From Peptoniphilus vaginalis (lineage in GTDB: Bacteria; Bacillota; Clostridia; Tissierellales; Peptoniphilaceae): DNA of 64,000 nt. The translations under genes were made by a program, and so were the position numbers. A model generated the notes under the pieces. The model saw nothing but the letters and a program-made list of their open reading frames with translations. It ran no database searches and was not told the DNA's origin. The DNA is taken from assembly GCF_900176605.1 (NCBI RefSeq), contig NZ_FXLP01000004.1, positions 496,001 to 560,000 on the forward strand, read 5' to 3'. Shown here piece after piece: positions 53,840 through 57,088 of the stretch (its first letter is position 1; every line of letters starts with the position of its first letter).

Positions 53840-55180
53840 TCAACCAATACCACCAAGTATTGCACCAGCTATTAGGGCAACTATGGCAGCTGTTACATAT
53901 ACATATTTTGCTAATGGATAGTACCATCCTCCAATTTTCTTTGGTGAGCCTTCATTGACTGCAGCAAGGACATAATCTTTGTCTGCAACCCAAAGGAACA
54001 TTATGCCAGCAAGGGCTGCTCCAAGTGGGCAAATGTAAATTGAAACAACGTCCATCCAACCACTTACTATGCCTTGAATCAAAATTGCAACGAGGCAACC
54101 AATGATGTGGATAATTGTAGTTGCAAGAAATCTTGACGCATTGAATTTTTCTTGTAGGTAGGCAACTGGTGTTTCGTAAAGGTTAATTATTGAAGATACT
54201 CCTGCAAAGAGAACGCAGATGTAGAAAATCATTCCAATAATTTTTCCAATAGGCATGCCGTTAAATACATGTACAAGGAAGATAAACATAAGACCAGGGC
54301 CACCAGTGTCAAGTGGTGCATCAGCTGCTGCCATGGCAGGGATGATTACAAAGGCTGCCAAGAGGGCTGCTATTGTATCAAAGACTGCAACATTTCTTGC
54401 TGATGATGGAATACATTCATTCTTAGGAAGGTAAGATCCATAAATTACAGTGCCTGAGCCTGCTACTGATAAGGAGAAGAAGGCTTGTCCAAAGGCAAAT
54501 ATCCAAACCTTAGGATCCTTTAATCCTTCAGGGTTTACTGTGAAAATATACTTATATCCATTTGCAGCACCTGGAAGGAAGAGGATGTAGATTGCAAGTC
54601 CTACAAATAAAATGAATAGGGCTGGCATCATAATTTTGTTTGCCTTTTCAATTCCACCAGATACACCCATTACCATTATGGCAAAGCTTGCAAGTATTGC
54701 TACTACAACCCAGATGTTTGCACCAAAGGCTCTTGCTGTTAGACCAAAGGTACCACCAATTACATCCATATCTTGTCCCATTTCATAAAGGTGACCTGAT
54801 AGAGAAAGGAAGGTGTATTTAAAAATCCAAGCCATTACACAAGTGTAGCCTATAGCTAGTGCCAAAGAGCCGAGAACTGGGATAAGACCAATTAATTCGC
54901 CAGGCTTTTTGTTGCCAGTTCTTAATTCTGTACATTTTCCAAAGGCACCAACTGGTCCAGCATTTGCTGACCTACCTAGTGCCATTTCAGAAATTACTCC
55001 TGTAGATCCTATTAAGGTTACGAAGATAAAGTAAGGAATGAGGAAAGTCATCCCACCATAAGTTGAAACCATTATAGGGAATCTCCAAATATTACCCATA
55101 CCAACTGCGGACCCAATACAAGCTAGTATAAAGCCCCATTTGCTTTTAAAACCATCACGAGTTTTTAAGTTGTTATCCAT
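53840..55180 (-). CDS. Neurotransmitter:sodium symporter family transporter, probably tryptophan/aromatic amino acid
   Basis: 446 residues, 11-12 membrane spans, LeuT-like fold: WGFILACIGSAVGMGNIWRF (first sodium/substrate site), GSTGVISEMALGRSANAGPV, FSLSVAGSGTVIYGSYLPKN. It lies 84 bp downstream of tryptophanase on the same strand, matching the known tna gene pairing in which an NSS (TnaT-type) carrier imports tryptophan. Sodium coupling is known of the family; the substrate is inferred. GGAGAAAAA precedes the start. Confidence 0.88.
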   Translation of the reverse strand: MDNNLKTRDGFKSKWGFILACIGSAVGMGNIWRFPIMVSTYGGMTFLIPYFIFVTLIGSTGVISEMALGRSANAGPVGAFGKCTELRTGNKKPGELIGLIPVLGSLALAIGYTCVMAWIFKYTFLSLSGHLYEMGQDMDVIGGTFGLTARAFGANIWVVVAILASFAIMVMGVSGGIEKANKIMMPALFILFVGLAIYILFLPGAANGYKYIFTVNPEGLKDPKVWIFAFGQAFFSLSVAGSGTVIYGSYLPKNECIPSSARNVAVFDTIAALLAAFVIIPAMAAADAPLDTGGPGLMFIFLVHVFNGMPIGKIIGMIFYICVLFAGVSSIINLYETPVAYLQEKFNASRFLATTIIHIIGCLVAILIQGIVSGWMDVVSIYICPLGAALAGIMFLWVADKDYVLAAVNEGSPKKIGGWYYPLAKYVYVTAAIVALIAGAILGGIG

Positions 55181-56908: not shown

Positions 56909-56938
56909 AAAAAAACCTCCATATAATAATAAAAAAGT

Positions 56939-57028
56939 TATAGAGGAACCCCGGTCATTAATATAAATTAACTAGCGGACAGTATCCTATAGAGAACCCC
57001 GGTCATTAAAAATTTAACTAGCGGACAG
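56939..57028 (-). promoter_or_regulatory. Tandem 42-nt motif in the tnaA leader
   Basis: In the transcript direction two copies (57028-56988 and 56982-56939) read CTGTCCGCTAGTTAA, a variable spacer (ATTT in one, TTTATA in the other), then TTAATGACCGGGGTTC and CTCTATA. TTAA-loop-TTAA and CCG/CGG can pair, making each unit a small hairpin with conserved flanks and variable loop. They lie between a predicted promoter and the tnaA ribosome binding site, so they are transcribed. Looks like a tandem aptamer or protein-binding RNA (or a repeated operator); I know no described family with this sequence. Confidence 0.75.
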
Positions 57029-57059
57029 CACTCCAGATAATATTTATTATCTATGCAAC

Positions 57060-57088
57060 AGTTTACATTATGAAAGAATAATTGTCAA
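57060..57088 (-). promoter_or_regulatory. Predicted promoter of tnaA
   Basis: On the minus strand TTGACA (57088-57083) and TAAACT (57065-57060) with 17-bp spacing, giving a leader of about 145 nt that carries the tandem motif. Confidence 0.65.

Follow-up and report, generated by a model that had tools for sequence, protein, structure and literature searches.

Tandem copies of a putative natural L-tryptophan aptamer in the tryptophanase leader of Peptoniphilus vaginalis

The tnaA locus and its leader

The sequence examined was a 64-kb window from Peptoniphilus vaginalis (assembly GCF_900176605.1, contig NZ_FXLP01000004.1, positions 496,001-560,000), the window being the whole stretch of DNA that was analysed. 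The tryptophanase gene tnaA, its leader and the gene behind it lie on the minus strand, with the following features in order of transcription:

57060..57088, minus strand: promoter-like site TTGACA-17-TAAACT, from a consensus scan; the transcript would start near 57053
57035..57052, minus strand: hairpin AGATAAT/ATTATCT at the presumed 5' end of the transcript, from the fold of 57025-57056
56988..57035, minus strand: putative aptamer copy 1, internal loop CUA/GAC, from the alignment and a covariance-model match (R2, 58.6 bits)
56940..56989, minus strand: putative aptamer copy 2, internal loop CUA/GAC, from the alignment and a covariance-model match (R2, 62.3 bits)
56939..56946, minus strand: CCUCUAUA, the 8-bp complement of the Shine-Dalgarno region, overlapping the 3' strand of the outer stem of copy 2
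56916..56923, minus strand: UAUGGAGG, the Shine-Dalgarno region of tnaA
55265..56908, minus strand: tnaA, tryptophanase, 547 aa (NF009709, 611.9 bits; nearest solved chain 8sl7)
53840..55180, minus strand: sodium-dependent transporter gene behind tnaA (NF037979, 64.4 bits, cut-off 50)

The tnaA product exceeded the cut-off of the NCBIfam tryptophanase model NF009709 (285 bits) and fell below the cut-offs of the TnaA equivalog models. Its best solved relative, 8sl7, is a 569-aa chain named Tryptophanase. Compared with the NF009709 profile stretch that it matched, the window protein has about 78 extra residues, and 8sl7 is also long. The tnaA product of genome G084 was 100% identical, after rounding, to that of the window. 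The sodium-dependent transporter gene probably belongs to the same operon as tnaA.

The promoter ranked first among six promoter-like sites, with 2.4 expected, and no intrinsic terminator was found between it and tnaA. The segment holding the 5' hairpin (57025-57056) folded to -7.5 kcal/mol (z -2.81), a value that none of 200 shuffles reached. In the tandem leaders that were read, CATAGATAAT or a close form followed the promoter, and its pairing partner differed among species. Elsewhere in the window, group II intron matches (RF02001, RF01998 and RF00029) were located at 1230-2975 on the plus strand.

The first-pass annotation had described a two-copy repeat at 56939-57028, with unequal loops between TTAA arms, downstream of the promoter and upstream of the GGAGG of tnaA. 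Both copies lie on the minus strand and agree exactly in their shared blocks, and the TTAA arms enclose 4 nt in copy 1 and 6 nt in copy 2. The repeat does lie between the promoter (57088-57060) and tnaA, with GGAGG preceding the ATG; its extent needed a small revision, the element running a few bases beyond the interval given. CTCTATA, which had been counted as part of the repeat, belongs after copy 2 to the stretch complementary to the Shine-Dalgarno region.

A strict form of the repeat pattern was present at two places in the 64-kb window, and 100 shuffles gave no instance of it; a looser form had no occurrence in the 1.88-Mb genome beyond these two. Across the genome collection the looser form led to three loci, in Anaerococcus ihuae, A. 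jeddahensis and Peptoniphilus genitalis, all of them directly before tnaA.

A conserved and covarying RNA fold

A TnaA search of 199 genomes of the order supplied tnaA leaders, from which 22 sequences were aligned (alignment A2). These were 22 of 30 matches; both rows each of L002, L007, L010 and L013 were omitted as repeats or near-repeats. RNAalifold predicted 13 pairs on A2, five of them changed on both sides. Covariance model R1 was built from A2 and was followed by a later model, R2. The final alignment, A3, comprised 32 distinct rows out of 38. The rows omitted from it were both L002 rows, L011:1423-1472, L037:1500-1549, L056:1511-1562 (a shifted sub-match) and L061 (long loop).

From the outside inwards, the element has a stem P1, a loop that carries an invariant G, a CCG/CGG stem, an internal loop of 3+3 nt and a variable upper hairpin P2. 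Its consensus in A3, with 15 invariant columns, reads P1-AC-UGN-CCG-CYM-P2-loop-P2'-RAC-CGGG-GU-P1'. Above P2 the loop can be as short as GAAA (L069) or as long as about 60 nt (some first copies and L061).

The A3 fold was compared with shuffled alignments, and three measures stood above all 500 of them: 93.5% of cells were paired (87.0% in shuffles), 37 cells were changed on both sides (13.9 in shuffles) and the covariation score was 0.325 (0.208 in shuffles). Two further measures were not above the shuffles, namely pairs with both-side changes (observed value reached in 123 of 500) and further pair types (315 of 500). In slid controls, 34-55% of cells paired. Because related rows inflate covariation statistics, weight was placed on the compensatory exchanges themselves: C-G to U-A at columns 20-93 in 7 rows, A-U to G-C at columns 21-92 in 11 rows, and G-C to A-U at columns 4-107 in 11 rows. 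The folding energy of single copies was ordinary, with z-scores of +1.00 for the piece with copy 1, -0.04 for the piece with copy 2 and -0.31 for the pair.

Rfam 15, T-box included, was searched with the window leader and with 18 related loci. Nothing in the leader, and nothing at the element in the other loci, scored at gathering level, and relaxed E-values gave low-scoring, irrelevant matches only. The T-box was rejected on this ground. As a control, the same search recovered a purine riboswitch elsewhere in the Anaerococcus ihuae locus L001 (595-692, plus strand, 50.9 bits), which lies before an ORF at 750-2171 and a few kb from tnaA.

The element is almost certainly a structured, cis-acting RNA of tryptophanase leaders. 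The first-pass annotation had proposed searching other genomes with a covariance model and looking for covariation in homologues; both searches were positive.

Distribution across genomes

With R1, the element was matched in 26 of 130 genomes of the family and in 28 of 249 genomes of the order, those 26 included. Four of 398 genomes of the phylum were matched: the genome of the window itself, G632, G392 and G638. The G632 match (28.3 bits) lay before tnaA, and one of 73 genomes was matched in the order of G632. Those in G392 and G638 (22-23 bits) were discarded; they lay inside unrelated ORFs and were the sole matches away from tnaA.

With R2, six of 391 genomes of the class were matched, including the new genome G728, as were two of 82 in the class of G632, including the new genome G592, and one of 188 in the order of G728. 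Neither G592 nor G728 was in either model at the time of discovery. In total, the element was found directly before tnaA in 31 genomes from four families and two classes. It preceded both types of tryptophanase, the long (547-aa) and the short (464-467-aa). Absences in these genome searches are soft, the searches having used stricter filters and a limited number of candidates scored per genome.

Among the 21 genomes of the TnaA search with a long-type tnaA, 15 carried the element. No match was obtained at the other six long-type loci (L017, L018, L019, L022, L025 and L026) or at nine short-type loci (L027-L035). At L025 and L026 the element-less tnaA follows, at about 14 nt, a gene that resembles pdxS by eye; a pyridoxal phosphate synthesis gene would fit a PLP enzyme. 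In L015, L016 and L058, GCAAAGGATTTCCT recurs between the promoter region and the aptamer, and L020 has part of it, as GCAAAGGATTGC.

Tandem and single copies

Two matches were present in 14 of the 31 genomes (10 in the genus of the window and four in the genus of A. jeddahensis), and a single match in the remaining 17. With only one match in so many genomes, any cooperativity between copies cannot be a general requirement.

The copies of a pair tended to differ in their internal loops. Nine of the ten first copies in A3 had the loop CUC/AAC, and second copies had CUA/GAC (seven of nine) or CUA/AAC (two of nine). The one exception among first copies was copy 1 of the window, which combines first-copy flanks with a second-copy core and is identical in P. 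genitalis (one row kept). From this arrangement of flanks and core, copy 1 appears to have been converted recently by copy 2, and such a conversion would account for the strong likeness of the two copies in the window.

Repeated DNA operators for a transcription factor had been among the suggestions of the first-pass annotation, and two direct repeats downstream of a promoter are what such operators would look like. Both arms of the stems change together, the conserved halves stand anywhere from 4 to about 60 nt apart and more than half of the genomes gave one match, all of which makes operators very improbable.

A core shared with tryptophan-binding RNA

The simplest L-Trp site in the selections of Majerfeld and Yarus (2005) and Majerfeld et al. 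(2010) is reportedly a CYA/GAC internal loop. In A3, the internal loop was CYA/GAC in 14 of 32 rows, CUC/AAC in 11 and CUA/AAC in seven. The combination C16-G93, which would close the loop by a Watson-Crick pair, was absent from the aligned rows.

The synthetic tryptophan riboswitch Blc3, for which the in vitro selection of an L-tryptophan aptamer is cited, contains GGGGACGCCACTGG-ACTAGGTAAG-CCAGGACCGTACGTC in the accessible part of its report (PMC11126579). About half of the tested Blc3 mutants gave a nearly five-fold higher signal with tryptophan, according to the same portion of that source (PMC11126579). Within Blc3, CTGG and CCAG are complementary, which places CCA opposite GAC, and ACG and CGU can pair below. 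The core CG-CYA-stem-GAC-CG is identical in the natural element and in Blc3 as far as the latter's sequence is given there (PMC11126579). A search for another publication with both aptamer strings in print gave none. Folded alone, Blc3 had a different lowest-energy structure, at -15.7 kcal/mol compared with -8.8 kcal/mol for the CCA/GAC form.

A G flanking the selected tryptophan site is described as essential, though its position varies, in the part of PMC5492135 that was available. In the natural element a G is invariant in 32 of 32 aligned rows, 5 nt ahead of the loop, and Blc3 likewise has a G there; this invariant G would correspond to the essential flanking G of the selected site. The available passages of two sources also state that Trp sites concentrate anticodons (PMC5492135) and that the codon or anticodon of tryptophan was present in its simplest aptamer (PMC1894784).

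Within the 64-kb window, the strict core with a 4-bp stem was confined to the repeats, where it was matched by both copies and by one overlapping artefact. Fifty first-order simulations did not produce it once, and 13 of the 32 aligned sequences contain it. By a rough estimate, chance alone would match the 3+3 loop plus CG closing pairs at a rate of about 1 in 30,000, or more often if other forms count as well.

L-tryptophan is likely the ligand of the predicted aptamer. A riboswitch of the same fold could instead bind a ligand near tryptophan (indole, another aromatic amino acid or a tryptophan derivative), or the CUC/AAC copies could bind a ligand other than that of the CYA/GAC copies. The same structural and genomic evidence applies to such a switch, tryptophanase makes indole, and the loop varies between copies. 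What tells against it is that a synthetic riboswitch responding to tryptophan has the identical core, and we regard this alternative as unlikely.

A somewhat less probable alternative again is that an RNA-binding protein recognises the hairpins and so governs the translation of tnaA or the stability of its mRNA. Small conserved hairpins ahead of one gene can be protein sites, and two loop types could mean that a protein tolerates both. The match of the core to a tryptophan aptamer would then be a coincidence. TRAP, the sole candidate protein searched, was absent from all eight element-bearing genomes examined, with B. subtilis as a positive control, and regulation by TRAP was rejected.

Complementarity to the Shine-Dalgarno region and a proposed switch

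In the window, CCUCUAUA after copy 2 can pair over 8 bp with UAUGGAGG, with a predicted duplex energy of -10.2 kcal/mol, compared with -5.1 kcal/mol in shuffles (p 0.010). In other genera the complementarity is kept in another register, UACCUCC with GGAGGUA. Folding runs covered 26 last copies, and the duplex test covered 25 of them, the linker of L069 being too short. L010, L039, L045, L070, L077 and L083 were left out of both. Shine-Dalgarno complementarity was above the shuffle mean in 24 of the 25 leaders, which are related, and reached p < 0.05 in 13. The leader not above the shuffle mean in this test was L066. In L066 and L083, CAAAUACC in the 5' strand of P1 can instead be set against GGUAUUUG, just after the Shine-Dalgarno sequence.

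At minimum energy, the window leader was predicted to have copy 1 folded, P1 of copy 2 open and the Shine-Dalgarno region paired to CCUCUAUA. When the aptamer and P1 were forced, with the sequence ended at AUG, 17 of the 26 leaders gained more than 0.05 in openness of the Shine-Dalgarno region, which closed in five (L001, L002, L059, L060 and L069). For the window, openness rose only from 0.04 to 0.06 with P1 forced. Folding with coding sequence and without the full P1 gave mixed results across leaders and no switch for the window.

In other systems, the substrate of tryptophanase induces the enzyme. A switch acting through an intrinsic terminator was set aside because the stretch from promoter to tnaA contains none. 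A translational ON switch is the most likely mechanism because of the Shine-Dalgarno complementarity, the folds with P1 forced, the lack of a terminator and the substrate induction known elsewhere. In such a switch, the internal loop and the neighbouring G would form the tryptophan site, by analogy with the selected aptamer, and binding would stabilise P1. Without ligand, the P1 strand or adjoining bases would pair with the Shine-Dalgarno sequence or start region of tnaA; with P1 formed, this region would be freed, translation of tnaA would rise and tryptophan would induce its own breakdown. On balance, the predicted aptamer would be expected to activate tnaA translation.

In enterobacterial tna, a leader peptide, TnaC, couples tryptophanase expression to tryptophan. 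Tryptophan-dependent attenuation by a TnaC-like peptide has this known system in its favour, and in the window leader it can be practically discounted. The only ATG ORFs closed within that leader encode MTGVLYRILSAS and MTGVPL, both without Trp; the leader lacks a terminator, and the RNA stems covary. The first-pass annotation had likewise seen no TnaC peptide, and no ORF of the leader has an in-frame Trp codon.

Taken together, the repeats are probably two tandem copies of a small natural L-tryptophan aptamer in the tnaA leader, acting as a putative translational ON switch. A small aptamer for tryptophan sensing had been one of the initial suggestions, and it is now strongly favoured by the covarying fold, the position before tnaA in 31 genomes and the core of a tryptophan-binding RNA.

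Significance and comparison with known systems

As is looked for in metabolite riboswitches, a conserved, covarying candidate aptamer occupies the 5' leaders of related genes. The literature searched contained artificial tryptophan riboswitches only and no natural one; novelty is provisional, because subscription papers and preprints lay outside that search. The scales tip modestly towards a putative natural L-tryptophan riboswitch class, in which evolution and test-tube selection would have reached the CYA/GAC site independently, at times with CCA, the tryptophan anticodon triplet.

If this is true, a natural tryptophan riboswitch would fill a gap among amino-acid sensors, and it would explain how Gram-positive anaerobes, without TnaC, control tryptophanase, the bacterial source of indole. 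It would also provide a natural counterpart for an aptamer that has figured in the debate about the genetic code and RNA-amino acid affinity, and would make the convergence of nature and selection testable. The shortest form (34 nt, in L069) would be among the smallest aptamers.

TnaC control is based on a peptide and the ribosome, and the window leader is without a Trp-coding ORF. The glycine, guanidine-II and preQ1 riboswitches have very small aptamers or two aptamers in series. The element resembles them in being very small or serial, and it matched no Rfam family at gathering level in the leader and the 18 related loci searched.

The trpB motif (SRC-39-1), an untested riboswitch candidate of Firmicutes and Fusobacteria, is likewise a leader RNA at amino-acid and tryptophan genes in the part of its description available (PMC11109978). 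That description gives it two hairpins, the second an intrinsic terminator, and places it mostly before ABC transporters and at times before trpB (PMC11109978). The present element has no terminator and precedes tnaA only; the distinction is drawn from the available description of the trpB motif.

The closest likeness in the core is to the selected L-tryptophan aptamer and the synthetic riboswitches derived from it, Blc3 (PMC11126579) and 70-727 (PMC12566513). CYA opposite GAC, CG pairs below, a stem above and a G in a loop a few bases below, as seen in Blc3, recur in the element, the CYA/GAC loop itself in 14 of 32 rows. Riboswitch 70-727 exposes a ribosome-binding site in tryptophan excess, as stated in the available part of PMC12566513, which is like the proposal made here. 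The element differs from the selected aptamer in being natural, in standing before tryptophanase, in its conserved UGN/G loop and P1, and in carrying CUC/AAC or CUA/AAC in 18 of 32 internal loops.
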